Of a stretch of DNA of 64,000 bases, positions 6,217-35,736 are shown in pieces. The first letter of the stretch is position 1. Every line of letters begins with the position of its first letter. A program made the translations under genes and the position numbers. Under the pieces are notes generated by a model, which did no database searches, was not told the origin of the DNA, and saw only the letters and a program-made list of their open reading frames with translations. Origin of the DNA: Pseudoclavibacter sp. AY1F1 (GTDB lineage: Bacteria > Actinomycetota > Actinomycetes > Actinomycetales > Microbacteriaceae); the NCBI RefSeq assembly GCF_002931075.1, contig NZ_PSTQ01000009.1, positions 1-64,000 of the forward strand. The letters run 5' to 3'.

Positions 6217-6251
6217 CCAACCCCCGGGGGAACACACCGCTCAGTACATCC

Positions 6252-6280
6252 TTGACATATGTCCATTTCGCACATAACTT
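6252..6280 (+). promoter_or_regulatory. Sigma70-type promoter with embedded palindromic operator for GH43 gene
   Basis: TTGACA (6252-6257), a 17-bp spacer and TAACTT (6275-6280) form a near-consensus housekeeping promoter. The same bases hold an imperfect palindrome at 6255-6279 (TATGTCC / CGCACATA halves) related to the other ROK-associated sites in the window. A repressor bound here would cover both promoter boxes. The GH43 start lies about 130 bp downstream. Confidence 0.65.
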
Positions 6281-6339
6281 TGCGAGTCAATCCCCAAGCC
6301 GGTCCGGCCAACCTCCGAAGACTCGCCCGCGACTACGAC

Positions 6340-6363
6340 GTGCACGTGCACGTGCACGTGCAC
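6340..6363. repeat. Four tandem copies of the palindromic hexamer GTGCAC
   Basis: GTGCAC is repeated four times without interruption in the untranslated leader of the GH43 gene, about 45 bp before its ATG. Each unit is self-complementary, so the array can fold into a hairpin in RNA. Unit number could vary by slippage. Confidence 0.9.
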
Positions 6364-6407
6364 CAGCGAAGGTGCAGGGCAACTTCGACTGAAAAGGATG
6401 ACGCCCC

Positions 6408-11500: not shown

Positions 11501-11549
11501 GGCGGGGTCTCTCTTGCTCACGTCGTTGAAGGTGCCTGCCGCGGCGTCC

Positions 11550-15225: not shown

Positions 15226-15312
15226 GGTGGACTCCTGGGCTGTCGAGAGGGGATCCGGAAGGTGGTTCGGCTGCCAGTGGCCGACGCCCGGGGAGGGCGC
15301 CGGCCATCAGAT

Positions 15313-16836
15313 TTAGCTGGCCGGCTGGATGTTCCAGATCGGCGGGAAGGTGGAGTACTTCTGCCCTTCCGCGGTCACGCCGCTGGAGAGCCCGAAGGAG
15401 TTGTCGCCCTGGATCCAGGGGGCGAACCAGGCCTGCTCGACGACGTAGGTGTTGAGTTCCTGGAACGTCTTCGCCTGCTCGTCTCCGGTCTCACCCTGCG
15501 CCTTGGTGATGAGCTCGACGATCTTCGGATCGTTCACATGGAAGGTGTTCCAGAGTGCGTCCGGGTCCAACGCGATCTGCGTCGTGTCCCAGGAGCGGTT
15601 GGCATCGAGTCGGAAGATCGCCGCGGGGTACTTCGCGCCGAGGAGGTCCGAGATGAACGTCTCACCATTGACCGGCTGGTACTCGGCAGTGATGCCGATG
15701 GCTGCGAGGGCTTCGGTGACCGCTGCCTGCTCCGACGGGTAGATCGGCGAGACGTCCGGCATCGGCAGGACGAACCCATCCGCGTAGCCCGCTTCAGCCA
15801 TCAGCTCCTTGGCCTTGGTGACGTCGTAGGGGTAGCGCTCGTCCAGCTCAGGCAGGTACGCCGTGCTGTCGACGCTGAACATCTGCGCGGTCTTCGCCCC
15901 CTTGCCGTCGTAGAGCTGATCGAAGAGCGACTGGCGGTCGAGCGCGTAGTTGATTGCTTGGCGGACGCGCACGTCACCGAGCGCGGGCACAATCGTGCCT
16001 TCACGATCAAAGAGGTAGAGCCCGTTCGCGTTGTACGAGGGGAAGGAGACGACTTCCTGCCCCGACGAGGAGACCGATTCGATGTCCTTCGGTTCGACGT
16101 TCGTCACGTCGACCTGCCCCGCGCGAAGCGCGTTGAGCATCGCGTTCTTGTCGTTGAAGATCGTCGCCGTGATCTCGTCGTACGGGTACAGCTCCTGGTT
16201 CCAGTAGTCGGCGTTGCGTGTGTACACGTATTTGCTGCCGGCCTGGGTCGAGGGGCTGAGCGTGTAGGGGCCGGAACCGACCGGAGTCGTCGCGAGCGAG
16301 CCGTCTTCCAGGTGGCTGGGGCTGGCCATCATGCCGGCAGGGCCTCCGAGGCTGGGCAGGAAGGAGGGGTCCGGCGCAGACAGCTTGATGTCGACGGCGG
16401 TGGGATCGACAACCGTCACCTCTTCGATGAACCGGAGCTGGGTCGCGCTTCCGCCGGAGCCGGTCTTCGCGGACTCGAGGTTCGCTTTCACGGCCTCGCC
16501 ATCGAGGGGTGTGCCGTCGGTGAACTTCACATCGTCGCGGAGCTTGAGGCTCAGCACGGTGCTGTCGTCGTTGTAGGACCATTCGGTGGCGACGTTGGCC
16601 CCCGGCTCGCCCTCGTTGTCATTGCGCAGCAGCGAGTCGTAGACGGGCTGGGTGTACCAGATCTCCGGCCCCGTGAGGAGGTCGCCGGGCTGCCAGGACT
16701 GCGGCGGTGAGACGGTTGCCAGCGACAAAGTGCCGCCAGTCGACGACCCGCCGGCGGCAGGTTGCCCCGAGCATGCGGTGGCGGCGAGCGCGATGGCTAT
16801 GGCAGCGGCGGCAGCTGTCGCGAATTTTCTTCTCAT
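15313..16836 (-). CDS. ABC transporter substrate-binding lipoprotein, family 5
   Basis: A 507-residue solute-binding protein of the DppA/OppA class. It begins MRRKFATAAAAAIAIALAA and continues to a lipobox-like TACSG, so it should be lipid-anchored outside the membrane. Internal family markers include LRDDVKFTDGTPLDGEAVK and VRQAINYALDRQSLFDQL. The start at 16836 is preceded by GAAGGAAA and gives a proper signal peptide; the open frame upstream to 17355 crosses a structured leader and an operator and is not coding. It is the first gene of the operon through the permeases, ATPases and GH106-like enzyme. The likely cargo is a glycoside or oligosaccharide, by context only. Confidence 0.92.
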   Translation of the reverse strand: MRRKFATAAAAAIAIALAATACSGQPAAGGSSTGGTLSLATVSPPQSWQPGDLLTGPEIWYTQPVYDSLLRNDNEGEPGANVATEWSYNDDSTVLSLKLRDDVKFTDGTPLDGEAVKANLESAKTGSGGSATQLRFIEEVTVVDPTAVDIKLSAPDPSFLPSLGGPAGMMASPSHLEDGSLATTPVGSGPYTLSPSTQAGSKYVYTRNADYWNQELYPYDEITATIFNDKNAMLNALRAGQVDVTNVEPKDIESVSSSGQEVVSFPSYNANGLYLFDREGTIVPALGDVRVRQAINYALDRQSLFDQLYDGKGAKTAQMFSVDSTAYLPELDERYPYDVTKAKELMAEAGYADGFVLPMPDVSPIYPSEQAAVTEALAAIGITAEYQPVNGETFISDLLGAKYPAAIFRLDANRSWDTTQIALDPDALWNTFHVNDPKIVELITKAQGETGDEQAKTFQELNTYVVEQAWFAPWIQGDNSFGLSSGVTAEGQKYSTFPPIWNIQPAS

Positions 16837-16895
16837 GTGCGTTTCCTTCGGCTGAGGTGTTGTGCTCCGAACGTCGGCAGCTTCGCCAGGAGAGC

Positions 16896-17313: not shown

Positions 17314-18576
17314 ATGAGCAACGGTCAGCTGTCGCCTCAGGATGCATTCGTGCACGGTCAGCTCATCAACCTGATCCGCTCAGGACGCGCGAACACCCGG
17401 CCAGCGCTCGTCCGGGCCACGGGGCTGAGCAGGCGGATCGTCTCCGAGTGCGTCAGCCAGGCAGTCGAGACGGGCCTCGTCGACGACAGCGAGTTCGCCG
17501 TCGCGGACATCGGCCGCCCTTCACGCCTGCTCCGCTTTCGCTCCGAAGTCGGCGTCGTCTACGTCGGAGTCATCGAATCCTCGCAACTCTGGGCAGCAGT
17601 CGCCACGCTCTCCGGCAGCTTGGTCGACTCCATGCACCTGACGTGGGACGCAGCGGTCGGCCCGGTCGACACCCTGAACGCCCTCAAGCAGATGTTCGAG
17701 CAGCTCGCCGCACGAGGCCACGCCACCCCGTGGGCTATCGGCATCGGGGTCTCCGGTATCGTCGACTTCCAACGCGGACGACTCGTTTCGTCACCCCTGC
17801 TCACCGGTTGGACAGACTTCAGCATCCGCTCGTTCCTCCGCCAGCACTACGACGCACCGGTGTGGGTCGAACGCGATGTGAACGTGATGGCGCTCGGCGA
17901 GTGGCACCTGGGCAGCCCCGCGACCGAGGATGACCTCATGTACGTACTGGTCGACGAGGAAGTCGGCGCAGCAGTCGTGACGCAGGGGCAGATCCACCGC
18001 GGCCGTTCGGGCGCCACGGGCGCTATCGGGCACATGCGGGTCACCGACGACCCATCGTTCCCCTGCAGGTGCGGGCGCACGGGCTGCCTCGACGCAGTCG
18101 TGGCCGGTTGGAGCCTGGCCGAGCGCCTGTCGGCTCGAGCGTTGGAGAGCCCGTATCTCACTGCGCGCATCCAGGGCAAGGAACTGCTGACGGCCGAGGA
18201 CATCGGTGATGCCGCGCGGGCCGGGGACCCTGTCGCGGCCGAAGAGGTCCGAGCGCGCATACAGTTCCTGGGCTCCGCACTCGCTCCGCATGTGAACTTC
18301 ACCAACCCCGGAACGCTTGTCATCGGAGGAGGTCTGATCAGAATCGGCGACTGGACCGTCGATCTCGTCGAGCAGGCCCTCCGCGAAGGCTTGACCCCCG
18401 ACGCCTTGGAGCCTCTTTCCATCAGAGCGGCATCGTTGGACTACAGGGAGGGCCTGGTGGGCAGTGCCATCCTGGCCGTCGAGCAACTCTTCGCAGCAGA
18501 CACGGTAGGCCTCTGGATCGATCAGGGCTCACCGGTCGGACGGGCAGCTTCGCTCCAGGATCTCCTCGCGGGCTAG
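17314..18576 (+). CDS. ROK-family transcriptional regulator (second of four)
   Basis: A 420-residue protein with an N-terminal winged helix (about residues 15-75, containing TGLSRRIVSECVSQAV) and a ROK sugar kinase-fold domain. The zinc motif CRCGRTGCLDAVVAGW and the loop GIGVSGIVDF are present. The third position after the zinc cysteines is Asp where the other copies in the window have Glu. GAGGACGG precedes the ATG. It is divergent from the ABC transporter/GH106 operon and probably represses it until the imported sugar is sensed. The gene converges on the Gfo/Idh gene that ends the C-glycoside-type operon. Confidence 0.9.
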   Translation: MSNGQLSPQDAFVHGQLINLIRSGRANTRPALVRATGLSRRIVSECVSQAVETGLVDDSEFAVADIGRPSRLLRFRSEVGVVYVGVIESSQLWAAVATLSGSLVDSMHLTWDAAVGPVDTLNALKQMFEQLAARGHATPWAIGIGVSGIVDFQRGRLVSSPLLTGWTDFSIRSFLRQHYDAPVWVERDVNVMALGEWHLGSPATEDDLMYVLVDEEVGAAVVTQGQIHRGRSGATGAIGHMRVTDDPSFPCRCGRTGCLDAVVAGWSLAERLSARALESPYLTARIQGKELLTAEDIGDAARAGDPVAAEEVRARIQFLGSALAPHVNFTNPGTLVIGGGLIRIGDWTVDLVEQALREGLTPDALEPLSIRAASLDYREGLVGSAILAVEQLFAADTVGLWIDQGSPVGRAASLQDLLAG

Positions 18577-18606: not shown

Positions 18607-19590
18607 TCAGGACTCGAAGGCGTCCCGCCTGATGGCATCGAGGGTCTCGAACACACTGACCGTGTCCTCGAGCGTGTGCGTGGGGTGCTCGAGGAGACCG
18701 GACATCGCAGCGTCGTTGGCCGCGCGGAGCATCGGCGTGTAGCCGTGTCCCTCGCGATCCACGGTGCAGTGACGCGCTCGTGGCCCCTCGGGGCCGTAGG
18801 AGTGGACCGTGAGGCTCGACGAGAACCAGAAGCCTGGATCGATGTCGATCCAGCCCTGATCCCCGGAGATGGCCGCCGAGGAGCTGAGGAACTCCACCAT
18901 GGAACTCGCCCCGTGCGCGAAGCGCCCGCCGTCGTACTCGAGCGTGAAGTGCTCGCTCAGGTCGTTGCCGTCCGCCCTGACCGTACCGTTGGCGTGCACG
19001 CGTTCCGGGGCGCCGAGCATCATGTGGCTCAGCGTGACGGGATAGATGCCCTGGTCGAGAAGCGCGCTGCCTCCCGGCTGCCAACGGCTTGAGCCATCCT
19101 GCGGGAAAGGCGCACCGAAGGATGCTTGCACGGCGCGGACCTGGCCGATCTCTCCTGACCTCACGATGTCGCCGACAAGCGCCATGAGCGGATTGAATTT
19201 CATCCACATGGCCTCCATGAGGAAGAGACCCTCGTCGCGGGCCAGTTCCGCGAGCTCACGAACCTCACGAGCATCGAGGCCCAGGGGCTTCTCGCACAGC
19301 ACATGCTTGCCATGCAGCAACGCGCGCCTGGCCAGTTCGAAGTGCGTCACGTGAGGCGTGCAGAGGTACACGATGTCGATGTCCGACTCCAGCATCGCCG
19401 TGTAGTCGTCGAAGGGGTTCGGGATGTCGAAGTCGACCGCGAACCTCGTCGAACGCTCGATGCTTCTGGAGGCGACCGCTACGAGAGATGCGGACTCGAC
19501 CAGATGAAGGTCATGCGCGATCTGCTTCGACACCGCGCCGGTGCCCGCTATGCCCCACCGGAGCGGTCGCCGCTCGTCTGCGCTATCCAT
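18607..19590 (-). CDS. Gfo/Idh/MocA-family oxidoreductase
   Basis: A 327-residue NAD(P)-dependent sugar or diol dehydrogenase. The Rossmann motif is GIAGTGAVSKQIA, and HVLCEKPLGLDAREV carries the family's catalytic lysine. The C-terminal half is the alpha/beta dimerisation domain. The overall pattern (MEAMWMKFNP, GGSALLDQGIYPV) is that of the dihydrodiol/D-xylose dehydrogenase branch. It is the last gene of the leftward eight-gene run and overlaps the stop of the upstream GH35-like gene by eight bases, so it is translationally coupled to it. It could oxidise or reduce a released sugar intermediate. Confidence 0.88.
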   Translation of the reverse strand: MDSADERRPLRWGIAGTGAVSKQIAHDLHLVESASLVAVASRSIERSTRFAVDFDIPNPFDDYTAMLESDIDIVYLCTPHVTHFELARRALLHGKHVLCEKPLGLDAREVRELAELARDEGLFLMEAMWMKFNPLMALVGDIVRSGEIGQVRAVQASFGAPFPQDGSSRWQPGGSALLDQGIYPVTLSHMMLGAPERVHANGTVRADGNDLSEHFTLEYDGGRFAHGASSMVEFLSSSAAISGDQGWIDIDPGFWFSSSLTVHSYGPEGPRARHCTVDREGHGYTPMLRAANDAAMSGLLEHPTHTLEDTVSVFETLDAIRRDAFES

Positions 19591-21226
19591 CAGTCGGATC
19601 CGCGAACTCCAGCAGCGTGATTCTCACCGCTGTCACACCTGCCATGTCGAGCGTCACGAGACGCTCATCACCGTTCAGCAGACGTCCTCCAACCAACTCG
19701 CCCTCCTCAAGGCGGAGCTCCTGCACGCTGGATATCTCGACCGTCGCCCCCTCACGCGAGAAATCGACGATCGCGCGCTGCCCGACAGCCAGGTACTCGA
19801 GCGGTCCCGTCTGCACGACGATGCCGAAGGGACGCGAGTCGGCGAAGGAGGGGGCGTGCGCGGTCGGGAGGTTCTCGTCCGGGAGCGATGGAAGTTCCGG
19901 GAGGCGAACGCCGACATCCAAGAGCACATCGGCGAGCGTCTTCGGAGCACTCCGGACGACCACGGTGGTCGATCCGAACTGAGCTGTTGCAGAGTCGACG
20001 CCCTGGTCGAGGGCGAACCCCATGATCAGGCCGGCCCGGCGAGCATCGAGCAGTTGGGGTGCCATGCCGATGAGGTGCCGGAAGCCGGCGAACAGCTGAC
20101 TCCCCGGACGGACGTCGTCGATCCCGAACGCGTGGTACCCGATCGCGTCGAACGAGCCGAAGGCACGGAATGCATCGCCCGTGATGACGCGGGCCTCCGG
20201 CACGAAGAGCGGGTTGTCCTCGGAGGCGTACTCGCGCATCACGGATTCACTGTCTGGCGTGTAGATGTCCGGTGCGAGGAAGTCGAGGTGCGGTGCAGCC
20301 GCCCGCCAGACGCCACCCATCCGGGCCGTGGGGCCACCGCTCGGGTACTGACCCGGGAGGTCCTGTCCCGGCTGAGGCCCAAGCCAGGCATTGGCGTAGG
20401 CGGGCAGGCCCTTGATGGACTTGCCCCGCTTGGCGAGTTCCCCGAGGTAGCTGGCGAAGCCCCACGCCATGAACACCTCGTCGGCGACGAGATTCTCGTC
20501 ACCCCAGCGATCCTGCCAGGATGCTCCAGCCGTTCCGGGCTCGCGGAACAGCTCCACGATGTCGTCGTGGAACCCTTCGGGGTGACGTTCCACGGCCTCC
20601 ACGAGAGCCGACGGCACCGGCGACTGCCACGCTTCCACAGCTACCGCAGAGCGGTCGCGGCTGACGCCGAGAAGTCCGACCTCGTTCTCCACCTGCATGA
20701 TGATGACGGTGTGCTGCTCGTCGACGAGGGCAATGTGTCGCATGAGCGCCTCGTACGCCCTTGCATCTGCCTCCCTCAACCGAGGCGAGAAGACTGACAG
20801 CGTCGGCTTCGGCATCGAGCCGGGGTAGGTGAGCGGGGCTCTCATCGGCGAAGGCCCGCGGTCCGCACGCTCGAACCGGGAGGGGTCGCGGCGAACCCAG
20901 CTCGGCGCGTAGGTCGAGGTGGCGTTCTTGAACGCGCCGAACCAGATGAGCACAAGGCGGATGCCCGCCGCGCGCGCGCCTTCCAGGAGGGCATCGACAA
21001 CGCTGAAGTCGAACTCTCCCTCGTTCGGCTCCACCTGGTCCCAGCCGACTGGCGCGACAACCGAATTGATGCCCGACTCTGCGAGAGCCGCCCAGACGGT
21101 CTTCATGTGAACGGGGTCGGAAGCGCTGGAGTTGCGCAGCTCTCCGCCGACGCAGAGGAACGGTGCCCCATCCACGATCAACTCTGGGTGCTTGCCTGAA
21201 CGGGTGAGATGTGGAAGCTCGAACAT
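19583..21226 (-). CDS. GH35-like glycosidase with DUF5597-type C-terminus
   Basis: A 547-residue TIM-barrel protein. The start (HPELIVDGAPFLCVGGELRN) and VVAPVGWDQVEPNEGEFDF match the GH35/DUF5597 beta-galactosidase-like family. VENEVG has the expected acid/base glutamate and NPLFVPEARV the probable nucleophile glutamate. The last 100 or so residues form a beta-sandwich as in DUF5597. No signal peptide is present, so the enzyme is cytoplasmic. It lies 100 bp after the sugar isomerase gene and overlaps the next oxidoreductase gene, so it belongs to the same operon. It may remove an O-linked sugar before or after the glycoside oxidation step. Confidence 0.82.
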   Translation of the reverse strand: MFELPHLTRSGKHPELIVDGAPFLCVGGELRNSSASDPVHMKTVWAALAESGINSVVAPVGWDQVEPNEGEFDFSVVDALLEGARAAGIRLVLIWFGAFKNATSTYAPSWVRRDPSRFERADRGPSPMRAPLTYPGSMPKPTLSVFSPRLREADARAYEALMRHIALVDEQHTVIIMQVENEVGLLGVSRDRSAVAVEAWQSPVPSALVEAVERHPEGFHDDIVELFREPGTAGASWQDRWGDENLVADEVFMAWGFASYLGELAKRGKSIKGLPAYANAWLGPQPGQDLPGQYPSGGPTARMGGVWRAAAPHLDFLAPDIYTPDSESVMREYASEDNPLFVPEARVITGDAFRAFGSFDAIGYHAFGIDDVRPGSQLFAGFRHLIGMAPQLLDARRAGLIMGFALDQGVDSATAQFGSTTVVVRSAPKTLADVLLDVGVRLPELPSLPDENLPTAHAPSFADSRPFGIVVQTGPLEYLAVGQRAIVDFSREGATVEISSVQELRLEEGELVGGRLLNGDERLVTLDMAGVTAVRITLLEFADPTDG

Positions 21227-21326
21227 GGGTTCTCCTTTGACTTGCGTGAGCGTTGCGGCGGTGCAACGGTGATGCGGTGGAGGGAGGAACGTCCTGGCGT
21301 TCGTCTCCGACGAGTTCGCTGCTTGG

Positions 21327-22337
21327 TCAGCCCTGCTTGGTGGAGAACGCCGAGTCGAACGCTGCCTCCGACGGGCGGTACGTGGAGAGCTTGCGCACGA
21401 AACCGAGCGCTTCCGGAGCGCCCACGAGGCGGTCCATGCCCGCGTCTTCCCACTCCACCGACAACGGTCCCTCGTAGCCGATCGCGTTCAGCATGCGGAA
21501 GCAGTCCTCCCACGGCACGTCCCCGTGCCCGGTGGAGATGAAGTCCCACCCCCGCCGCGGGTCAGCCCACGGCAGATGCGACGACAGGCGCCCATTCCGG
21601 CCATTGCTGAGGCGCTTCTTCGTGTCCTTGCAGTGCACGTGAAAGATGCGGTCCTGGAAGTCCCACAAGAACCCGACCGGGTCGATGTCCTGCCACACCA
21701 TGTGCGACGGATCCCAGTTCAACCCGAACGACTCCCGATGCCCGATCGCCTCCAACGCGCGCTTCGTGGTCCAGTAGTCGTACGCGATCTCCGACGGATG
21801 CACCTCGTGCGCGAACCGCACCCCGACCTCCTCGAACACGTCCAGGATCGGGTTCCACCGGTCCGCGAAGTCCTGGTAGCCGGCATCCACCATCGCCTCG
21901 GTGGCGGGAGGGAACATCGCCACGTACTTCCAAATCGAGGAGCCCGTGAAGCCCGTGACGGTCTTCACGCCCAACGCCGCCGCCAACCGGGCCGTGTTCT
22001 TCAGCTCCTCCGCAGCCCGCTGCCGCACGCCCTCGGGCTCGCCGTCGCCCCACACACGGTCGGAGACGATGTCGCGGTGCCGCTGATCGATCGGGTCGTC
22101 GCACACGACCTGCCCCTTGAGGTGGTTCGAGATCGTCCACACCTTGAGACCGTTGCGCTCCAGGATGTCGAGACGCCCCTGGACGTACTCGGCGTCATCC
22201 CACCGCCACGGGTCCAGGTGGTCGCCCCAGCAGGCGATCTCCAGACCGTCATACCCCCACTCCCCCGCCAGCCGCGCAACCTCCTCGAACGGCAGATCGG
22301 CCCACTGACCGGTAAACAACGTGACAGGACGAGACAT
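21327..22337 (-). CDS. Sugar phosphate isomerase/epimerase-like TIM barrel
   Basis: A 336-residue xylose isomerase-like TIM barrel. Likely divalent-metal ligands are in [37 protein letters not shown] and [11 protein letters not shown]. This family includes epimerases, isomerases and the 3-keto-glycoside-cleaving DgpC/CarC type proteins. A Gfo/Idh oxidoreductase gene lies 46 bp upstream. It is one of three TIM barrels in the operon; unlike the one at 23607-24710 it has no small DUF6379 partner next to it. It may isomerise the released 3-keto sugar. Confidence 0.86.
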
Positions 22338-22383
22338 GTTTCTCCTCTTTAACTAACGTTCTCGAATGCTGAAGCCGCGCCGC

Positions 22384-23538
22384 TCAGACAACAACGGCAG
22401 ACCGGGTGTCGACCCACGCACTCTCGGCGGCCGAGCTGCGTTCGACGGCGTCGAGCACACGTTGCACGCTGAGCCCTTCTTCGAAGCTCGAGTGCAGCGG
22501 AGCGGCGTCGGCGATGGCGCCCACCAGGTCGACAACCTGGTGCGTGAAGCCGTGCTCGTAGCCGAGCATGTGGCCAGCAGGCCACCAGGCTGAGACGTAC
22601 GGATGCTCGGGCTCGGTCACGAGGATCTGCGCGAACCCCTGCGCCCGGCTGTCGGCCGTGCAGTCGTAGTACTGCAGCGAGTTGAGGTCCTCGAAGTTCC
22701 ACGCGAGAGCGCCGAACTCGCCGGAGACCTCGATCGCGAGGGCGTTCTTGCGGCCCGTCGCGAAGCGGCTCGCGTCGAACGAGGCGAGCGCCCCGCCCGA
22801 GAGCCGTCCGGTAAAGATCGCGATGTCGTCGACCGTCACCGACCCGGTGCCCGAGCCGTCCGCGAGCGGCCGCTCGTTGATGATCGTGTCGATCGTGCCG
22901 GAGACCCGCTCGACGTTCTGGCCTATGACGAACTGCGTGAGGTCGATGGCGTGAGCCCCAATGTCGCCGAGCGCGCCGGAGCCCGCGAGCTCCTTCTGCA
23001 GGCGCCACGAGAGTGGCGCGTCCGGGTCGACAAGCCAATCCTGCTGGTAGGAGGCGCGCACCCGGTGGATGCGGCCGATCTTGCCCTCCGCGATCAGGTC
23101 GCGCAGCAGGGTCACGGCAGGCACACGACGGTAGGTGAAGCCGACCATCGACTTCACGCCGCGCTCAGCTGCGCGAGCAGCCGCATCCGCCATCGCCTCA
23201 CCCTCGGCGACCGTGTTGGAGAGCGGCTTCTCGACGATGACGTGCTTGCCCGCCTCGAGCGCCGCGATGGCGATCTCGGCGTGCGAGTCACCTGGCGTGA
23301 CAATGTCGACGATGTCGATGTCGTCGCGCCCGATGACCTCACGCCAGTCGGTGGCCGACTCCCGCCAGCCCCACTGCTTCGCGGCCTCCGCGACGGCCTT
23401 GCCGTTGCGCCCGACCACAACCGCCATCTCGACGTCGGCTGGCAGGCCGAAGACGCGAGGCGCCTGCCGCCAGCCGACCGAGTGAGCGGCTCCCATGAAG
23501 CCGTAGCCGATCATGGCGACTCGAAGGGGCTTGGTCAT
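22384..23538 (-). CDS. Gfo/Idh/MocA-family oxidoreductase
   Basis: A 384-residue dehydrogenase beginning MTKPLRVAMIGYGFMGAAHS, with the Rossmann glycines and the catalytic-lysine motif VIVEKPLSNT. I prefer the ATG at 23538, preceded by AGAGAAG, over one 36 bases upstream with no ribosome binding site. In sugar 3-oxidation pathways such enzymes interconvert sugars and 3-keto sugars (DgpA is a member of this superfamily). In this operon it may reduce the released 3-keto sugar to a normal hexose, or act as an alternative oxidase partner. It lies 68 bp after the CarC-like gene. Confidence 0.88.
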   Translation of the reverse strand: MTKPLRVAMIGYGFMGAAHSVGWRQAPRVFGLPADVEMAVVVGRNGKAVAEAAKQWGWRESATDWREVIGRDDIDIVDIVTPGDSHAEIAIAALEAGKHVIVEKPLSNTVAEGEAMADAAARAAERGVKSMVGFTYRRVPAVTLLRDLIAEGKIGRIHRVRASYQQDWLVDPDAPLSWRLQKELAGSGALGDIGAHAIDLTQFVIGQNVERVSGTIDTIINERPLADGSGTGSVTVDDIAIFTGRLSGGALASFDASRFATGRKNALAIEVSGEFGALAWNFEDLNSLQYYDCTADSRAQGFAQILVTEPEHPYVSAWWPAGHMLGYEHGFTHQVVDLVGAIADAAPLHSSFEEGLSVQRVLDAVERSSAAESAWVDTRSAVVV

Positions 23539-23606
23539 AGGAGCTTTGCTTCTCTCTGCGGGATGGTCGATCATGATCGGCTTGTTGCGGTGCGGACGCG
23601 TGGCGG

Positions 23607-24710
23607 TCAGCGGCGAACTGGCAACGCGTGGTGCGCTGCGAGCACTCGCCGCGCTTCGGCTGGGTCGGTGATCATCCGCGATCCCGCATCAGAGGCGGCG
23701 GAGCGCTGGACGGCCTGCTCGTCGCGCACGATGTCGAACGCGCTCTCCCAATGGTTCCAATGCCAGCCCTCGTATTCGCTCGAGACGGCTCCCGAGTACC
23801 CCTGCTCGACAAGCAGCGCGATGAGCTCGCGCACGGGAACCGATGGCTCCTCGCCGTGCTCATCGATGCCGAAGAACTTGCCGTGCACGTGCTTGACCCA
23901 CGGCATGATCTCGAGCCAGTCCTCGACCCGAGCCGGGCCGAAGAGTCCCGTGCCGTTAATGGCGAAGTCGATGCCGAAGTCTGGGCGTCCGTGCTTGGCG
24001 GCGAGGCCGATGAACGAGCCGAAGCGCTTGCCGTGCACGCCCTGGTCGGCCGGCGGGCCCTCGGCGTAGTAGCCGTCCCACAGCTCGACGAGCTCGGCGA
24101 GCAGCTCCTCCGAGGCGCCGCGGCGCCGGTACGCCTCGACGGCCGATGGGGCGAACGCCTTGGTGGTGGCGCCCCAGTCGGCGGTGAAGCCGAGGAACGG
24201 GGAGCCGACCTGCTCGAAGCGGTCGCGCAGCGCGAGGATGCGCGGGTGCGAGGCGTACTGGTCGGCGTGCACCTCAAGGGCGAGGGTCACGCCGTGCTTC
24301 TCGGCGATCGGCGCGAGCTGCTCCATCGAATCCGGCGTGATCGAGATCTGCACGCGGGCGACAGGGAAGCCGAGCTTCGCGGCTGCCTCGATCTGGCGGG
24401 TCATGTACTCGACGAGCTCGTCCTGCGAGAGCAGGCGATCGCGGTGAATGCCGATGTCGGCGTTGACCGCGAGCGACGTGCGCACGAGGTCGAGTTCGTC
24501 GACGAGGTCCGAGAACTGACCGGCGAACTCATCCGTCACGTGCGGGAAGCCGCGAACGCTCGAGAACCCGATCATCTCGATGCCCGGCCCGAAACCGTCA
24601 GCCGCTACCTTGCGGATGAGCCCCTCGAGGTCGTACTCGCGTCCGTGGAACGCGCGGGTGAAGCTGTAGAGGGTGACCCCCTGGATGGGGGTGCCGAGCT
24701 CGCCAGTCAT
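23607..24710 (-). CDS. TIM-barrel protein, CarC/DgpC-like C-glycoside deglycosidase large subunit candidate
   Basis: A 367-residue xylose isomerase-like TIM barrel. Candidate metal ligands are in LALEVHADQYAS, LGFTADWGAT, VKHVHGKFFG and GAVSSEYEGWHWN. Its ATG overlaps by four bases the TGA of a 131-residue DUF6379-like gene. In gut DgpB/DgpC and environmental CarB/CarC, a TIM-barrel subunit and a small beta-sandwich subunit form the complex that breaks the C-C bond of 3-keto C-glycosides. The tight pairing of the same two families, right after a GMC flavoenzyme, is the basis for this call. O-glycoside 3-keto elimination is an alternative, since family membership alone does not fix the bond type. 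Confidence 0.78.
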   Translation of the reverse strand: MTGELGTPIQGVTLYSFTRAFHGREYDLEGLIRKVAADGFGPGIEMIGFSSVRGFPHVTDEFAGQFSDLVDELDLVRTSLAVNADIGIHRDRLLSQDELVEYMTRQIEAAAKLGFPVARVQISITPDSMEQLAPIAEKHGVTLALEVHADQYASHPRILALRDRFEQVGSPFLGFTADWGATTKAFAPSAVEAYRRRGASEELLAELVELWDGYYAEGPPADQGVHGKRFGSFIGLAAKHGRPDFGIDFAINGTGLFGPARVEDWLEIMPWVKHVHGKFFGIDEHGEEPSVPVRELIALLVEQGYSGAVSSEYEGWHWNHWESAFDIVRDEQAVQRSAASDAGSRMITDPAEARRVLAAHHALPVRR

Positions 24711-25102
24711 GCTGAAACCGCCTTCATCGTCTTGGAGCTGTGTTCTTCGATGCGGAGCACCCCGTGGTCAGACACGATGTACGGGATGTAGAGGCTCAGG
24801 TCGACATCGACGGTGTGCTCTTCATCCCCGGCGGTGATCGGGATGTCACCTTCGACGACAACCGAGTCGGTCGGGAACCACCATTCGCTGCTGTCGCCAG
24901 CGAGTTCGTCGGACGCATACGTCTTCCCGTTCATGGTCCAGCGCAGCGACTCCAGCGAGGCGGCAACGCCGTCGACGGAAAGGCCGAACTCGGAGATGCA
25001 GGATGCGGGAAGCGCGCGGTACCAGGGCAGACGCACCTCGACAGAGGTGCGTACCCCGTTCGTCTTGAGCGTGTCTTGTTCAATCATCCGATCAGGAATC
25101 AT
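24707..25102 (-). CDS. DUF6379-like small subunit, CarB/DgpB-like
   Basis: A 131-residue, mostly beta protein with no membrane segment. Stretches such as TSVEVRLPWYRALPASCISE and WWFPTDSVV look like the DUF6379 family, which holds the small subunits of DgpBC and CarBC C-glycoside deglycosidases. A strong AGGAGG precedes the ATG, and its stop overlaps the TIM-barrel start. The flavoenzyme gene ends 30 bp upstream. The fold assignment is from recognition of family features and gene order, not from a search. Confidence 0.75.
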   Translation of the reverse strand: MIPDRMIEQDTLKTNGVRTSVEVRLPWYRALPASCISEFGLSVDGVAASLESLRWTMNGKTYASDELAGDSSEWWFPTDSVVVEGDIPITAGDEEHTVDVDLSLYIPYIVSDHGVLRIEEHSSKTMKAVSA

Positions 25103-25132
25103 GGTGGCCTCCTAGCCAGTTGTCAGTCATGG

Positions 25133-26719
25133 TCAGTTCTGTGTCGCCTGGGCGGCGACTGCTGGTGCCGCGGTGAGCTTCGCCGCGACGTCGCGGGCAC
25201 CCTTGACCGCGAGCGCGACGCCCGTGAGGGTCGGGTTACAGGCCGTCGAGGTCGGGATGACGCCGTTGCCGGCGACGTAGAGCCCCGGCACGCCCCACAC
25301 CTCGCTCGTCGGCGAGCAGACGCTCTCGCCGTCGTCCGTCTCACCCATTCGCGTCGTGCCCTGGTAGTGCAAGGAAGCCCCGAACGGCAGGCGCATGACC
25401 CGCTCATCGAGGGGCTCGCCGACAGCCGCGCCGAGCCGGCGCAGCTCGGCCTCGGCTGCGTCCGTCACTGCTCGGTCCTTGTGGGTGGCGGTGTAGTGGA
25501 TGCGCACGGCAGGCATCCCGTAGCTGTCGAGGTGGCCGTCGGTGAACAGCACCCGGTCGTCGCGCTGCAGCTCTTTCGCGCAGAACATGCCGATCCCCAC
25601 GATGGAGCCGGGGATGACGGCATCGTCGACCGCGACGGGCACGGGGGACGCGTCGAGCTGCATGATCTGTCCGTGGAACGGCTTCGCGTCGGTGTACGGC
25701 ACCCAGCTGACGCCGCTCGTCTCGCTGATGGCACCAGCAGTCTTGTCGATTACCGTCGCCGCCGAGCTTTCAGAGGCATCGATGCCGGTGATGCGGGCGG
25801 CGAAGACAACCTGCGACTGGTCGTTGAGGTAGCGGCCGAGCGCGTCCGGGCGGATCCCGGATGCCCAGAGCACCTGCGGGGTGCGGAGGGCATCGGCGGC
25901 CACGATGACCACTCGGGCCGCGACCACGCTGAGCTGCTCGGCGCCGGCCTCGCTGAGGTCGCGCACCTCCACGCCCGCGGCCGCTCCGTCGTCGCCGATG
26001 ACAGTCCGGGTGACGAGGGACTCGTCGAAGAGCTCGAAGTTGGGGTTCTCTCGCGTCACGTCACCGAGAACGACGTCGGACCCCGACCAGACGAGGCGTC
26101 CGTCATCGCGGCGCCGCACGGCGAGCGGCATGCGCTGCACGCGGGCGGCGGGCCCGCGCCCCTCGTCGACGACCGGAGAGAGCCGATCGCGGATGAGCTG
26201 ACTGAAGGGGGCCCCCTCGAAGGCGTCCGTCGTCACGCCCAAGAGGCGCTCGGCCTCGCCGAGGAGCTCATCGAGCTCACCCGTCGAGTCGAGGAAAGCA
26301 ACGCGCTCGCTCTCTCCCGGGCGCGGGCAAGCGCCAGTCCAGTGCGCCGACATGCCGCCGACGTTGCTCGACATGGCAGCAACGGGCAGCCCCTCACCGC
26401 CGCCGACCGAGAAATCACCGTCGGGAAGCAGGTACGTTCCCGGGCGCGACTGACGCTTCCCCTGCGCGAGGGCGACGGGACTGTTGAGCTTGGAGGCAGC
26501 CTCCCCTGGCCCCTCGGAGCGCCGTTGGGCAGTGGCGCGTGCCTCGAGGTCCTCGATGTTCTTGACGTGCGCGCCGGGCGGGTTCGACACGGTCGGCCCG
26601 ACCTCGAACATCGCGATGCGCAGCTCGGGTGCTGTCTCGCTCAGGATGCGTGCGTACGTTGCGCCGGCCGGTCCGCTGCCGACGATGGCGACGTCGACGC
26701 GATCTGGATAACGGGTCAT
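25133..26719 (-). CDS. GMC-family FAD oxidoreductase, CarA/pyranose-oxidase-like glycoside 3-oxidase candidate
   Basis: A 528-residue flavoenzyme. The N-terminal FAD motif is VDVAIVGSGPAGATYARI. VGGMSAHWTGACPRP resembles the flavin-contact stretch of pyranose 2-oxidase, and the C-terminal catalytic pair would be H451 in SLHYQGTTRMG and N495 in STACNPTLTG. FAD-dependent CarA enzymes of soil actinobacteria oxidise C3 of the glucose unit of C-glycosides before cleavage by CarB/CarC, and this gene is followed by those two families. The ATG at 26719 overlaps the TGA of the upstream isomerase by four bases; the open frame further upstream is not protein-like. Other polyol or pyranose oxidase activities remain possible. 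Confidence 0.83.
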   Translation of the reverse strand: MTRYPDRVDVAIVGSGPAGATYARILSETAPELRIAMFEVGPTVSNPPGAHVKNIEDLEARATAQRRSEGPGEAASKLNSPVALAQGKRQSRPGTYLLPDGDFSVGGGEGLPVAAMSSNVGGMSAHWTGACPRPGESERVAFLDSTGELDELLGEAERLLGVTTDAFEGAPFSQLIRDRLSPVVDEGRGPAARVQRMPLAVRRRDDGRLVWSGSDVVLGDVTRENPNFELFDESLVTRTVIGDDGAAAGVEVRDLSEAGAEQLSVVAARVVIVAADALRTPQVLWASGIRPDALGRYLNDQSQVVFAARITGIDASESSAATVIDKTAGAISETSGVSWVPYTDAKPFHGQIMQLDASPVPVAVDDAVIPGSIVGIGMFCAKELQRDDRVLFTDGHLDSYGMPAVRIHYTATHKDRAVTDAAEAELRRLGAAVGEPLDERVMRLPFGASLHYQGTTRMGETDDGESVCSPTSEVWGVPGLYVAGNGVIPTSTACNPTLTGVALAVKGARDVAAKLTAAPAVAAQATQN

Positions 26720-27510
26720 GCGGCCACCCCAACTTCCCGCACGAAGGCGACCGAAGCCGCGGACTCCGTGGTCGGGGAGTACTCGAGGCCGATGGGACCG
26801 TCGTAGCCGGAAGCGCGCAGCACGGAGAACTTCTCCGCCCAATCAAGCGCGCCGCTGCCGGGCTCGCCGCGGCCGGGCGCATCCGCCAACTGCACGTACT
26901 TGACGATGGTGCCGGCGTTCGCGAGTTCAGTGGCCATGTCCTCGCCCTCGACGGCCGAGTGGTAGATGTCGTAGAGCACGCCAAAGTTCGGAGAATCGAC
27001 GCCGCGCGCAACGTAGACGGCGTCAGAGGTGCGGTCGATGAGCGCACCCGGGTGGTCGACGCGGATGTTGACGGGCTCGAGCACGAGCGTGATGCCGGAG
27101 CCCTCGATCTGCGCGATGGCCTTCTCGTAGATGGCGATCAGTTCGTCGAGTTGCGTCTGACGCTTCGAGCCGCCGAAACCGGTCCCGCTGCCGACGACGA
27201 GTCGCGGGCAACCGAGCTCCTGCGCGATGGCGACCCCCTCGTCGAGACACTGGTAGAAGAAGGAATGGTCTTTTGGCGGCAGCATGAACTGCGTTCGCGG
27301 CTCGGCGAGCTGGGCCGTGAGCTGCGTGCCGGTCTCCTGCAGTGCCGCCTTGAGAGCGGGGATGTCCTTGGGCTTGGCGGGCGCGTCGCGCCCGGTCGGT
27401 CCCCACATCTCGACGGCGTCGAAGCCCGCCGCAGCGGCGGCGCGGACGCGGTCTTGGTAATCGCCTGCCTCGGTGAAGAGGAGCTCGATGTTCGGAGCGA
27501 GCTGGTACAT
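26716..27510 (-). CDS. Hydroxypyruvate isomerase-like TIM barrel
   Basis: A 264-residue TIM barrel starting MYQLAPNIELLFTEAGDY. Metal-site candidates are LVLEPVNIRVDH, YDIYHSAVEG and IGLEYSPT, as in hydroxypyruvate isomerase and related keto-sugar isomerases. The ATG at 27510 has AGAAGGAAAG in front; an alternative ATG/GTG 36 bases upstream lacks this. It is the first gene of the eight-gene leftward run. In this setting it may isomerise or epimerise the keto sugar produced by the operon. Confidence 0.85.
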   Translation of the reverse strand: MYQLAPNIELLFTEAGDYQDRVRAAAAAGFDAVEMWGPTGRDAPAKPKDIPALKAALQETGTQLTAQLAEPRTQFMLPPKDHSFFYQCLDEGVAIAQELGCPRLVVGSGTGFGGSKRQTQLDELIAIYEKAIAQIEGSGITLVLEPVNIRVDHPGALIDRTSDAVYVARGVDSPNFGVLYDIYHSAVEGEDMATELANAGTIVKYVQLADAPGRGEPGSGALDWAEKFSVLRASGYDGPIGLEYSPTTESAASVAFVREVGVAA

Positions 27511-27978: not shown

Positions 27979-28917
27979 GTGACCTCAGAAACTCCGCTTT
28001 CCAGGCTCGATCTGAACTTGCTCGTCTCGCTCGATGCCCTGCTCACCGAGCGCAGCGTGACGCGAGCCGCAGAGCGCCTGCACCTCAGCCAGCCGGCGCT
28101 CAGCGCATCCCTTGGCAGGCTGCGCACGCATTTCGACGACAAGATTCTCGCGCGAACCGGGAACGCTTACGAGCTCACGCCCCTCGCCGTCCGACTCAGC
28201 GAGCTGACCGCCACCGCCCTCGACTCCGCCAGGCGCGTGTTCGACAGCCAGGCCGAATGGAACCCGACCCAGTCCACGCGCGAGTTCACTGTGCTCGGCT
28301 CCGACTACGGCTTCGCGACGATCGGGGTCGCCGTCTCCAAGCTGGCCGCCGAGACCGCTCCCGGGGTGCGGTTCAGGTTCCGCATGCACAACCCGAGCAT
28401 CGTCGAGGACGCCATCGCGCAGCTCCGCTCGGTCGACGCCATGATGATCCCCCACGGCTTCCTCAGCGACCTCCCCTACAACGACCTCTTCACCGACGAG
28501 TGGCGCATCATCTGCTCCCACGACAATCCGCACGTCGGCGAGCAAATCACGATGGAAAACATCGCCGAGCTGCCGTGGGTGTTCAACTACCTGTCGCGGT
28601 CGGCGTTCACCTCGGCGAGCCGGCAGATCCGCGAGCTCGGCATCGAACCCACCGTGGCCGCCGTCGTCGAAGGATTCCACGTCCTCCCTCACTTCGTCGA
28701 AGGCACCAACCGGCTCGCGCTCATGCAGAAGCGCCTCACCGACGTGCTCATCCCGAAGGAAGGGTTCCGGGTGCTCGAGCCACCCTTCGACGCGACCCCC
28801 ATCTCGGCGGCCCTCTGGTGGCATCCAACCCACAACAGCGACCCAGAGCACGCGTGGATGCGACGGCTCTTCGCGCAGGCCGGCGCCGCGATGCAGGCGG
28901 AGGCCGGCGGGGCGTAG
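27979..28917 (+). CDS. LysR-family transcriptional regulator
   Basis: A 312-residue protein. Its N-terminal helix-turn-helix contains LNLLVSLDALLTERSVTRAA and LSQPALSASLGRLR, and a NodD/LinR-like effector domain follows. GTG is the start, with GGAAG nine bases upstream. LysR proteins of this branch often sense aromatic compounds. It is divergent from the C-glycoside-type operon and converges on the end of the aromatic-acid operon at 29018-35625, so either could be its target. The palindrome at 27768-27792 lies in the right position for control of the former. Confidence 0.9.
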   Translation: MTSETPLSRLDLNLLVSLDALLTERSVTRAAERLHLSQPALSASLGRLRTHFDDKILARTGNAYELTPLAVRLSELTATALDSARRVFDSQAEWNPTQSTREFTVLGSDYGFATIGVAVSKLAAETAPGVRFRFRMHNPSIVEDAIAQLRSVDAMMIPHGFLSDLPYNDLFTDEWRIICSHDNPHVGEQITMENIAELPWVFNYLSRSAFTSASRQIRELGIEPTVAAVVEGFHVLPHFVEGTNRLALMQKRLTDVLIPKEGFRVLEPPFDATPISAALWWHPTHNSDPEHAWMRRLFAQAGAAMQAEAGGA

Positions 28918-29017: not shown

Positions 29018-30247
29018 TCAGCGGGTGAGGATGAGGGCGTCGCCCTGGCCGCCTCCGCCGCAGAGGGCGACGGCCGCGGTTCCGGCGCCTCGGCGGACGA
29101 GTTCGTGCACGGCGTGCACCACGACTCGAGCCCCGGATGCTCCGATCGGGTGGCCGAGGGCGATCGCGCCGCCCTGCGGGTTGACCACCTCGTCGGAGAC
29201 GCCGAGCTCAGCCTGCGACTGCACGACGACGGCGGCGAAGGCCTCGTTGATCTCGATGTGGTCGAGCGAGGACGCGTCGATGCCCTGCCTCTCGCAGGCC
29301 CTCGCAATCGCTCGGGACGGCTGCGACTGCAGCGACGCGTCTGGCCCGGCCACCTGTCCGGCTGCGCCGACGACCGCGAGCACGTCGTAGCCGTGCGCGT
29401 CGGCGAAGGCGCGAGTCGTGAGGACAATCGCGGACGCACCGTCGGAGATCGGCGAGGCGTTGCCGGCCGTGATCGTCCCGTCCGTAGCGAAGGCGGCGCG
29501 CAACCCGGCAAGCGATTCGGCGGTTGTGGAGGGTCGGATGCCCTCGTCGCGGGTCACGCGAACCGGGTCGCCCCGACGCGCGGGCACGTCGACGGCGACG
29601 ATCTCGGCGTCGAAAAGCCCAGCATCCACGGCCGCGGCGGCCCGCTGATGCGAACGCGCGGCGACCGCATCCTGTGCCCCTCGTGTGATGCCGAGGCTCG
29701 TGTTGTGCTGCTCGGTGAGCAGGCCCATGCTCTGGCCGGAGGCCGCATCCGTCAGCCCATCGTGGGCCATGTGATCGAGCGCCTCGACCGAGCCGTACGC
29801 CCAGCCTTTGCGGGATCCGGCGAGGAGGTGCGGTGCCTGGCTCATCGATTCCATGCCGGCAGCGACCACAAGCCGCGCGTCGCCCGTCTTGAGCAAGCGG
29901 GCGGCGTCGATGACGGCGGTCAGCCCCGAGAGGCAGACCTTGTTGATGGAGGCGACATGCGCGGAAGCGGGGATGCCCGCGGCGAGCGCAGCCTGGCGTC
30001 CGGCGTTCTGCCCCACCCCGGCGGAGAGCACGTGGCCCACGAGGACGGCGTCAACCAGCGACGCGTCGATACTGCCCTGCGCGAGCGCGCCGCTGATCGA
30101 GGCGGCGCCGAGCTGCGGGGCGGTCAGCGTCGAGAGCTGCCCGTTGAGCTTGCCCTGCGGGGTCCGCGCGGCGGCGACGATGACGACGTCGTTGGGGTGT
30201 GGGACCGTGTTCTGGGTGATGTTGCTCGTGCTGCTCGTGCCGCTCAT
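29018..30247 (-). CDS. Acetyl-CoA acetyltransferase (thiolase)
   Basis: A 409-residue thiolase. The nucleophile is C105 in NKVCLSGLT, and NEAFAAVVV, GHPIGASGARV and ALCGGGGQGD supply the rest of the active site. The family removes acetyl-CoA from 3-oxoacyl-CoA. It is the last gene of the leftward aromatic operon, and its ATG overlaps the FAH-family stop by four bases. Its presence implies that the pathway ends in a CoA-bound beta-keto acid, although no CoA ligase or CoA-transferase is seen in this operon. The open frame upstream of 30247 is ignored because it runs through the previous gene. Confidence 0.92.
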   Translation of the reverse strand: MSGTSSTSNITQNTVPHPNDVVIVAAARTPQGKLNGQLSTLTAPQLGAASISGALAQGSIDASLVDAVLVGHVLSAGVGQNAGRQAALAAGIPASAHVASINKVCLSGLTAVIDAARLLKTGDARLVVAAGMESMSQAPHLLAGSRKGWAYGSVEALDHMAHDGLTDAASGQSMGLLTEQHNTSLGITRGAQDAVAARSHQRAAAAVDAGLFDAEIVAVDVPARRGDPVRVTRDEGIRPSTTAESLAGLRAAFATDGTITAGNASPISDGASAIVLTTRAFADAHGYDVLAVVGAAGQVAGPDASLQSQPSRAIARACERQGIDASSLDHIEINEAFAAVVVQSQAELGVSDEVVNPQGGAIALGHPIGASGARVVVHAVHELVRRGAGTAAVALCGGGGQGDALILTR

Positions 30248-31266
30248 GCGCTGACGCGTCCTCTCGTTCGGTCCCGCGATGCCGTGCGGGCGCGGGGAAC
30301 GGGCACGGCTTCGACGGCCGCGCCGATGACGTTGCTGATGTCGCCGATGCGCTCGACGCGCAGCTCCACGACGTCGCCCTCCGCGAGCGGTGGCGGCGTG
30401 AGCGAGCCCGTGCGGCCCCACAGCTCAGCGAGGCAACCGCCGTTACCGGCGGTGCCCGAACCGAGCACATCGCCGGGCACGACCCGCGAGTTCCGCGACG
30501 CGTAAACAAGCAACTGAGGGAACGACCAGCCCATGTTCGAGAGCAGGTCGCTGCCGATCAGCTCACCGTTGACGAGCACCTGCAGCTCGAGTTCGAGGAA
30601 GCCGTCGGCGTCGTGCGCGTCGGAGAGCTCGTCGGCCGTGACGATCCACGGGCCCAGGGTCGCGGCGAAGTCCTTGCCCTTGCACGGGCCGAGGCGCACC
30701 TTCATCTCGCGCGACTGTATGTCACGCGCCGACCAGTCGTTGAAGACGCTGTAGCCGAAGACATGCGCGGCCGCGCCGGTCTCGTCGAGGTTCGCGCCGT
30801 CGCTGCCATCCACGCCGCCGACGATCACGGCGACCTCGAGCTCGAAGTCGAGCCGCTCCGTCACGGGCGGGCGGATGCTCGCCCCGCTGCCGACAAGCGA
30901 GTGCGGGTTCGTGAAATAGAACGTGGGCGCGTCGTACCACTCGGCGACGACACCGGAGTCGCCGTCGATGGACTTCACGACGCCCTCGACGTGCTCCTCG
31001 AACGCCACGAAGTCGCGCACGCTCGGCGCCTCGATGGGCGCAAGCAGCTCGACGTCGGCGAGTGAGGGGGCGAGGCCCAGCGAGCCGTCCGCCCAGGCAC
31101 CCTCGACGAGTGAGGCCGCGAGCGCGTTGGCGCGCTCGAGGCCGAGCCTCGTCGCGCCGAGCACGGTCAACCCGTCGGCGAACGCGAGTAGTCGGTCGCC
31201 ACCCTCGTGCGCGACGACAACCCCGTCTTGGGTGCTGCCGTCGTGCATCCACCTGGCGTACCTCAA
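30244..31266 (-). CDS. Fumarylacetoacetate hydrolase (FAH) family protein
   Basis: A 340-residue protein of the FAH fold. Likely metal ligands are in DFELEVAVIVGG and FGYSVFNDWSARDIQ, and LGSGTAGNGG is the usual late loop. FAH members hydrolyse C-C bonds of acylpyruvates, decarboxylate or hydrate oxo acids. FNDWSARDIQ plus KGKDFAATLGPW places it close to fumarylacetoacetase-type proteins rather than to the second FAH member in this operon at 34636-35625, which has a shorter form. It overlaps both neighbours by four bases. The precise substrate is unknown. Confidence 0.88.
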   Translation of the reverse strand: MRYARWMHDGSTQDGVVVAHEGGDRLLAFADGLTVLGATRLGLERANALAASLVEGAWADGSLGLAPSLADVELLAPIEAPSVRDFVAFEEHVEGVVKSIDGDSGVVAEWYDAPTFYFTNPHSLVGSGASIRPPVTERLDFELEVAVIVGGVDGSDGANLDETGAAAHVFGYSVFNDWSARDIQSREMKVRLGPCKGKDFAATLGPWIVTADELSDAHDADGFLELELQVLVNGELIGSDLLSNMGWSFPQLLVYASRNSRVVPGDVLGSGTAGNGGCLAELWGRTGSLTPPPLAEGDVVELRVERIGDISNVIGAAVEAVPVPRARTASRDRTRGRVSA

Positions 31267-33478: not shown

Positions 33479-33580
33479 GATGGTCCTGCTTTCTGCGTCT
33501 GCGTTGACGATGAGGGTGTCTGTGTCAGCAGCGGCTGGGCCGCCGTGGGCTGCTGTGCGGGGGATGAGATGCGGGGCTGC

Positions 33581-35625: not shown

Positions 35626-35736
35626 GGTTGGTCTCCAATTCACGACGCTTCGGTGCGTTCGTGACATAAGTCAACCGCGTGCGGCGTCATCAGCCAAGCG
35701 GGGATGCGTTATTCAGGGCATCAGGGTTGGTGATGG

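Follow-up and report, generated by a model that had tools for sequence, protein, structure and literature searches.

C-glycosides resist ordinary glycosidases. The described systems closest to the locus considered here are the CarA/CarB/CarC clusters found in soil actinobacteria (Mori 2021, PMC8563793) and that of PsG3Ox (Taborda 2023, PMC10646112), in which a GMC flavoenzyme is combined with the beta and alpha subunits of a C-glycoside deglycosidase (CGD). We analyzed a 64,000-nucleotide stretch of the Pseudoclavibacter sp. AY1F1 genome (C29:1-64000, hereafter the window; the genome comprises 4.10 Mb in 29 contigs), where a leftward operon of eight genes at 18607-27510 shares the GMC, CGD beta, CGD alpha gene order and the catalytic residues of these systems. 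Judged by homology and gene order, this operon is very probably a CarABC-type unit for C-glycoside catabolism.

Other described systems resemble the locus in part. The gut dgp/dfg and Catenibacillus systems (PMC11170127) have CGD alpha/beta eliminase chemistry in common with the window, but their oxidation step is carried out by DgpA, an NAD(H)-linked Gfo/Idh enzyme, rather than by an O2-using flavoenzyme, and dgpA lies apart from dgpBC in the gut system. Catenibacillus, in which C-deglycosylation together with aglycone degradation in one organism has already been reported, also has rhamnosidases, and its aglycone enzymes belong to other families (a flavone reductase, a flavanone-cleaving reductase and a phloretin hydrolase; PMC11170127). 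The Agrobacterium AtOGE/AtHYD/Gfo operon (Bitter 2023, PMC10628242) follows the same scheme of oxidation, elimination, hydration and reduction that is predicted here, but it acts on O-glycosides, uses GlycDH as its oxidase and has an eliminase that shares no sequence similarity with CGDs. In soil bacteria, the steps after C-C cleavage and the handling of decorated C-glycosides are not settled in the literature that we found, and Mori 2021 (PMC8563793) asks what the other genes of the cluster do.

The genes of the operon, in order of transcription, are:

26716-27510, minus strand, HyiTIM, hydroxypyruvate isomerase/keto-sugar epimerase-like TIM barrel, first gene (AP_endonuc_2, 136 bits)
25133-26719, minus strand, predicted C-glycoside 3-oxidase (CarA/G3Ox), a GMC flavoenzyme (PsG3Ox and MtCarA homology; tree)
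24707-25102, minus strand, predicted CGD beta subunit (CGDB), 131 residues (PF19906)
23607-24710, minus strand, predicted CGD alpha subunit, TIM barrel (AgCGD2 homology and residues)
22384-23574, minus strand, Gfo1, probable 3-keto-glucose reductase of the Gfo/Idh family (4h3v, 501 bits; 6a3f, 279 bits)
21327-22337, minus strand, HYD, probable 2-hydroxy-3-keto-glucal hydratase, TIM barrel (8ro4, 2zds)
19583-21226, minus strand, GH35-like/DUF5597 glycosidase (DUF5597, 64.6 bits against a cut-off of 23)
18607-19590, minus strand, Gfo2, dihydrodiol dehydrogenase/sugar 3-ketoreductase-like Gfo/Idh enzyme (2o48, 148 bits; 3rbv, 111 bits)

The original prediction had described eight tightly packed leftward genes, and the list of open reading frames bears this out in coordinates and spacing. 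The successive junctions are a 4-base overlap (HyiTIM and GMC), a 30-base gap (GMC and CGDB), a 4-base overlap (CGDB and CGD alpha), gaps of 32 bases (CGD alpha and Gfo1), 46 bases (Gfo1 and HYD) and 100 bases (HYD and GH35), and an 8-base overlap (GH35 and Gfo2). The domains assigned at that stage likewise agree with the Pfam results for all eight proteins, which in transcription order are AP_endonuc_2, GMC, CGDB, AP_endonuc_2, Gfo/Idh, AP_endonuc_2, DUF5597 (with weak GH42/GH35) and Gfo/Idh.

Two sets of sequences were used for comparison. The named loci are the best 80 of 101 relatives from one scan of genome contigs with a CGD alpha alignment; some of them are short contigs, and true gene absences may be fewer than the counts imply. 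The family set consists of 299 genomes, of which 19 carry CGDB (the window's own among them) and 280 do not. The first four operon genes were all above threshold in 74 of the 80 named loci and stood in tight, same-strand order in 68; thus the gene set is not a chance assembly. CGD alpha was by definition present in all 80 loci, the scan having used it; CGD beta was also found in 80, GMC in 78 (77 under a stricter line), HyiTIM in 76, Gfo1 in 72 and HYD in 68. Three of the loci contain PsG3Ox, MtCarA and AgCGD2 themselves (matching stretches), and their gene order is that of the window. The closest named loci come from Pseudoclavibacter sp. RFBB5, P. terrae and Pseudoclavibacter sp. AY1H1. As a side observation, Microbacterium-like CGD clusters occur on contigs labeled Stenotrophomonas maltophilia P13 (L091) and Planococcus sp. 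APC 4015 (L061), which are probably contamination or mislabeled records.

The predicted oxidase and deglycosidase core

The GMC flavoenzyme scores 758 bits to PsG3Ox (7qf8) and 715 bits to MtCarA (7dve). H440 and N484, the catalytic histidine and asparagine of PsG3Ox, whose alanine variants are inactive (PMC10646112), align with identical residues, H451 and N495. A quick tree of 37 rows, with flagged long branches and no ScPOx, MPOx or KaPOx row, places the flavoenzyme with PsG3Ox and MtCarA and separates it from other GMC proteins, a group of 11 rows (224-331 bits), with a support of 100 in the SH-like approximate likelihood ratio test. The grouping is with the glycoside 3-oxidases, as had been proposed, and not with unrelated alcohol oxidases. 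The substrate loop (ASPVPVAVDD at position 357) is close to the reference ASPVPLADD and one residue longer. The protein falls below the cut-off of the pyranose oxidase family TIGR02462 (215.6 against 544.9 bits).

The small protein encoded next exceeds the cut-off of the Pfam family PF19906 'CGDB' (51 against 27.6 bits), which we take to be the former DUF6379; three of its relatives in the PDB were deposited as 'DUF6379 domain-containing protein'. Its best solved relative is AgCarC2 (7dnm_B), with DgpB and DfgB also among the best, so that the expected match to DUF6379 and to DgpB was recovered. The alpha gene adjoins the beta gene, and both are present in every named locus. The best PDB match of the alpha subunit is AgCGD2 alpha (7dnm_A, 182 bits), other chains from CGD entries scoring lower. 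AgCGD2 binds its metal through E147, D179, H269, K271 and E305 and has H149 and E307 as catalytic residues (Mori 2021, PMC8563793). All seven are kept in the window protein (E146, H148, D178, H276, K278, E312 and E314) and are invariant in 16 of 16 rows comprising the window and 15 orthologues. The alpha/beta pair is most likely a two-subunit CGD, with 3-keto-C-glycosides as the predicted substrates.

A tree built from 40 alpha rows puts the window subunit in clade 'A' and AgCGD2 in a different clade. The spacing of the CGD histidine and glutamate is 166, equal to that in MiCGD numbering (158 in AgCGD2), which would favor a CGD specific for C6- over C8-glycosides; a comparison of beta-subunit loops gave no clean fit to the C6 type. 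The two alpha subunits of P. siccitolerans are 49% and 38% identical to CarB (Taborda, PMC10646112), and the window CGD should therefore not be called a CarB orthologue. The original prediction had the operon oxidizing and cleaving C- or O-glycosides; homology and conserved residues uphold this for the CarA-CGD core.

The window is unusual in having a single CGD pair. Further CGD alpha homologues were found in 79 of the 80 named loci, the exception being the RFBB5 locus (L051), a near twin of the window; the window's genome has one CGDB gene and that of P. terrae (G234) has four. CGDB genes number three to five in many of the family genomes that carry them (G234, G007, G016, G036, G258 and others), and most of these lie in a single region. 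Some lie in long frames that suggest beta-alpha fusions, and L200:6294-7649 is a fusion by Pfam.

Probable sugar salvage and the distal genes of the operon

Of the enzymes that the original prediction regarded as extra, HyiTIM, Gfo1 and HYD proved to be standard parts of actinobacterial CGD clusters, given their presence in 76, 72 and 68 of the named loci; they also occur, as in the window, in the clusters of A. globiformis (L115), P. siccitolerans (L118) and M. trichothecenolyticum (L076). What does set this operon apart from the Car and PsG3Ox clusters, besides its single CGD pair, is the GH35-like gene and Gfo2 at its end.

HYD matches 8ro4, annotated as '2-hydroxy-3-keto-glucal hydratase', with 133 bits over query residues 20-329, and 2zds with 548 bits; a hydratase of this kind is its probable function. 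For the Agrobacterium counterpart AtHYD, preliminary evidence for hydratase activity has been presented, after which a Gfo enzyme takes 3-keto-glucose to glucose (Bitter 2023, PMC10628242). Gfo1 was also considered as a levoglucosan dehydrogenase, but its score to NF052479 (LevoglcsnDh) was 335.7 bits, below the cut-off of 650. HyiTIM missed the cut-off of the hydroxypyruvate isomerase family TIGR03234 (157 against 353.45 bits), and that assignment was rejected. By profile and by fold it matches, among others, 3ngf, D-tagatose/L-ribulose 3-epimerases and the 3-keto-D-glucoside 4-epimerase YcjR, and an AlphaFold model (mean predicted local distance difference test score 82.6) searched with Foldseek gave nothing beyond a 'keto-sugar epimerase/isomerase fold'. 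The protein is probably an isomerase or epimerase of a keto-sugar intermediate.

A second HYD copy, on another contig of the window's genome (G000:C2:55604-56608; L212 8602-9612), is 98% identical to the window HYD at the protein level. It is preceded by a Gfo1-like open reading frame (L212 7366-8598) and adjoined by ABC-transporter-like and ROK-like genes, and the pair has 83% identity with window DNA over 2053 aligned bases. Might Gfo1 and HYD form a portable module for 3-keto-sugars?

The GH35-like protein scores just below the GH35 family cut-offs (486.3 against 500 for NF051902, GH35_fam; 26.1 against 27 for PF01301); it is therefore labeled GH35-like and is not placed in the NF051902 subfamily. 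Its nearest solved GH35 relative is the beta-1,2-galactosidase Bxy_22780 (PDB 8z43/8z47/8z48), with 36% identity over 391 aligned positions. Eight Bxy_22780 residues were compared, namely the acid/base E190, the nucleophile E350 and N119, W288, L289, Q291, D326 and Y328 of the +1 site. Seven of these are kept, with E182 and E344 as the catalytic pair. Gln291, which helps to fix the C3/C4 epimer at the +1 site of Bxy_22780 (PMC11739564), is replaced by proline in the window protein and in all nine relatives examined, and the +1 sugar may therefore differ from that of Bxy_22780. Two other enzymes are said to act on galactosyl-beta-1,2-xyloside units (PMC11739564). The GH35-like enzyme may free the 2''-OH of the C-glucosyl residue from a beta-1,2-linked sugar before cleavage; this trimming is proposed because the 2''-ene-2'',3''-diol elimination mechanism of C-deglycosylation (Mori 2021, PMC8563793) would need a free C2 hydroxyl.

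Among the named loci, GH35 and Gfo2 occur together only in L051 (RFBB5). In the family set, GH35 matches (E up to 1e-80) were found in eight of 299 genomes, six of them CGDB-bearing (G000, G136, G045, G171, G028 and G036) and two among the 280 CGDB-free genomes (G116 and G149; Fisher p 7.4e-7). The GH35 matches of G028 and G036 are 44% identical, and the frame that matches contains a single TGA. G045 and G171 have the order importer, CGD beta, distant CGD alpha, opposite-strand ROK gene, GMC, GH35 and Gfo2. Across 347 genomes of the order (E up to 1e-140), the only GH35 matches besides that of the window's own genome were in two genomes of another family (G378 and G494), where GH35 adjoins a more distant Gfo enzyme (161-174 bits), CGD, GMC and an Opp importer.

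Flanking genes and a putative aglycone module

The eight-gene extent of the original prediction stands, but an importer, a rhamnosidase and an aromatic module that flank the operon had been overlooked, and genome comparison ties them to the pathway. The nearer flanking genes are:

27979-28917, plus strand, LysR-type regulator, divergent (HTH_1, LysR_substrate)
17314-18576, plus strand, ROK-family regulator converging on the operon end (ROK, 152 bits)
11550-16845, minus strand, Opp-type ATP-binding cassette (ABC) importer with ATPase, permease-ATPase fusion, permease and SBP_bac_5 binding protein (Pfam)
8276-11770, minus strand, GH106 alpha-L-rhamnosidase (PF17132, 659 bits)

In 50 of the 80 named loci, a LysR gene lies upstream in divergent orientation, and the regulator found here is a probable controller of the operon. 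Relatives of the Opp importer lie inside the GMC/GH35 clusters of G045, G171, G378 and G494, and we propose that the window importer takes up glycosides. A GH106 relative lies at most 10 kb from CGD in 13 of the named loci. Farther out, positions 85-3120 of the window encode a 1011-residue protein with phosphotransferase (APH) and class-III aminotransferase domains, adjoined by a major facilitator superfamily transporter (3249-4757). At 4939-7886, the plus strand encodes a ROK regulator and then a GH43 glycosidase, perhaps another glycan gene pair of the island.

Beyond the LysR gene lies the putative module for breakdown of the aglycone A-ring, recognized by Pfam and by co-occurrence with CGDB:

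29018-35667, minus strand, putative A-ring module, with the six genes that follow (Pfam)
29018-30244, minus strand, thiolase
30244-31266, minus strand, fumarylacetoacetate (FAA) hydrolase FAH1
31263-about 32411 (start uncertain), minus strand, amidohydrolase 2
32345-33478, minus strand, flavin adenine dinucleotide (FAD) monooxygenase
33581-34639, minus strand, 'cyclase' hydrolase
34636-35667, minus strand, FAA hydrolase FAH2

Cyclase relatives of at least 500 bits, a line chosen after the scores had been seen (in the gap from 508 to 303 bits), were found in 18 of the 19 CGDB-bearing and seven of the 280 CGDB-free family genomes; the Fisher p of 2.6e-22 overstates independence, the genomes being related. 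At the search's own cut-off the counts were 18 of 19 and 15 of 280 (p 5.5e-19). In all but two of the 18 genomes, a CGDB gene lies at most 18 kb from the cyclase; in G143 the distance is 784 kb, and in G036 the cyclase is on another contig. In the 10-kb flanks examined, the cyclase was seen in three and the dioxygenase in 11 of the 80 named loci, a rarity expected from the module's usual distance. In Nesterenkonia (L084), HYD is followed on its own strand by the module. In G494, a genome of another family, the importer, GMC, CGD, Gfo and GH35 genes lie together, with the module just beyond the GMC-CGD-Gfo-GH35 operon.

The content of the module was compared in 22 loci, all chosen for the cyclase: the window, L084, and pieces of 20 genomes out of the 25 in which the cyclase reaches 500 bits. 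Relatives of the FAD monooxygenase and FAH1 accompany the cyclase in all 22. Twenty of the loci also have an extradiol dioxygenase relative, mostly beside FAH2, on the opposite strand in several and beside FAH1 in L174; the window and the P. terrae locus L166 are the two without it. A ring-opening route free of dioxygenase was dropped on account of these 20 loci. In three Pseudoclavibacter genomes the dioxygenase is detached from the module, and in the window's genome it lies at C29:110117-111166. An enzyme of the 'cyclase' family opens the dihydrophloroglucinol ring in Clostridium, and a hydrolytic role for the module cyclase is therefore plausible by analogy. The FAD monooxygenase and extradiol-type dioxygenase recall those of the fde and ifc A-ring pathways (PMC11303751, PMC11069340), a likeness drawn from published descriptions. 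A difference is that the main text of PMC11069340 nowhere uses the words amidohydrolase, cyclase and fumarylacetoacetate. In L163, L165, L167, L169, L170 and L171, the surroundings of the module include, within several kb, a second and divergent GMC oxidase that scores 249-330 bits to that of the window.

Proposed pathway and alternative explanations

The protein families, key residues, gene order and conserved linkage are read from sequence; every reaction and substrate named below is a prediction. The Opp importer would carry the glycoside into the cell, where the GH35-like enzyme and the GH106 rhamnosidase would most likely strip 2''-O-linked sugars first. The flavoenzyme would then oxidize the C3 hydroxyl of the aryl C-glucoside with O2, and CGD alpha/beta, with its bound metal and catalytic histidine, would release the aglycone by beta-elimination and leave 2-hydroxy-3-keto-glucal. 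HYD would hydrate this product to 3-keto-glucose, which Gfo1 would reduce to glucose, while the FAD monooxygenase/cyclase/FAH module and the detached extradiol dioxygenase would break down the A-ring of the aglycone. That one locus handles a decorated plant C-glycoside all the way from import to central metabolism, including 2''-O-trimming and degradation of the A-ring by a conserved module of FAD monooxygenase, cyclase, FAH and amidohydrolase (with an extradiol dioxygenase) that accompanies CGD clusters across actinobacterial families, is a proposal to which we give even chances.

Several observations weigh against these assignments. None of the eight operon proteins exceeds any NCBIfam cut-off, and HYD is just 133 bits from the named hydratase 8ro4. 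Copies of HYD are present without CGDB (G149) and, in G045, G171, G378 and G494, lie outside the GH35/CGD cluster. PsG3Ox, a close relative of the flavoenzyme, is inactive on carminic acid and rutin, and substrate range therefore varies inside the oxidase clade. The usual extradiol dioxygenase lies outside the window, ~75 kb away on the same contig, and the choice of the 500-bit line and the relatedness of the family genomes count in the same direction.

A pathway mainly for O-glycosides (e.g. phloretin or flavonoid O-glucosides), with the same chemistry and with C-glycosides as incidental substrates, is quite unlikely. A clade II relative of the oxidase oxidizes phlorizin, CarA enzymes are slower on O-glycosides but active, the O-glycoside eliminase takes the same route, and GH106 and GH35 act on O-linked sugars, all of which would suit such a pathway. 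However, the oxidase falls among the clade IV enzymes, for which carminic acid and mangiferin are the best substrates listed, and the eliminase is a two-subunit CGD with C-glycoside residues; AtOGE, by contrast, does not resemble CGDs in sequence. GH35 and Gfo2 might instead form an alternative hydratase-reductase pair, GH35 hydrating the 3-keto-glycal, a type of reaction of which retaining glycosidases are capable, and Gfo2 reducing the product. In G045, G171, G378 and G494, GH35 and Gfo do adjoin GMC and CGD, with HYD not found in the stretch examined; yet all four genomes encode HYD elsewhere (74-76% identical to that of the window), the window operon already contains HYD and Gfo1, and GH35 keeps seven of the eight listed beta-1,2-galactosidase residues, which makes this replacement highly improbable.

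It is also unlikely that the aromatic module is an unrelated neighbor, brought near the operon by a shared island rather than by the pathway. The co-occurrence of the cyclase with CGDB (18 of 19 against seven of 280), its distance of at most 18 kb in 16 of 18 genomes, its same-strand position after HYD in L084 and its place near the GMC-CGD-Gfo-GH35 operon in G494 all argue for a link to C-deglycosylation. An unrelated neighbor would better explain why the module is located past the divergent LysR gene, why seven CGDB-free genomes have cyclase relatives of at least 500 bits, and why linkage was not shown in two of the 18 CGDB-bearing genomes.

The core chemistry of the C-glycoside unit is already known, and the GH35 association and the link to this aglycone module may be the new parts. 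Neither was found in searches of the open-access literature. The single CGD pair offers a clean setting in which to ask what a clade A CGD, at 182 bits from its best PDB match, cleaves. The locus suggests testable roles for nearly every one of its genes, and it points to an aglycone module that is genetically tied to C-deglycosylation.

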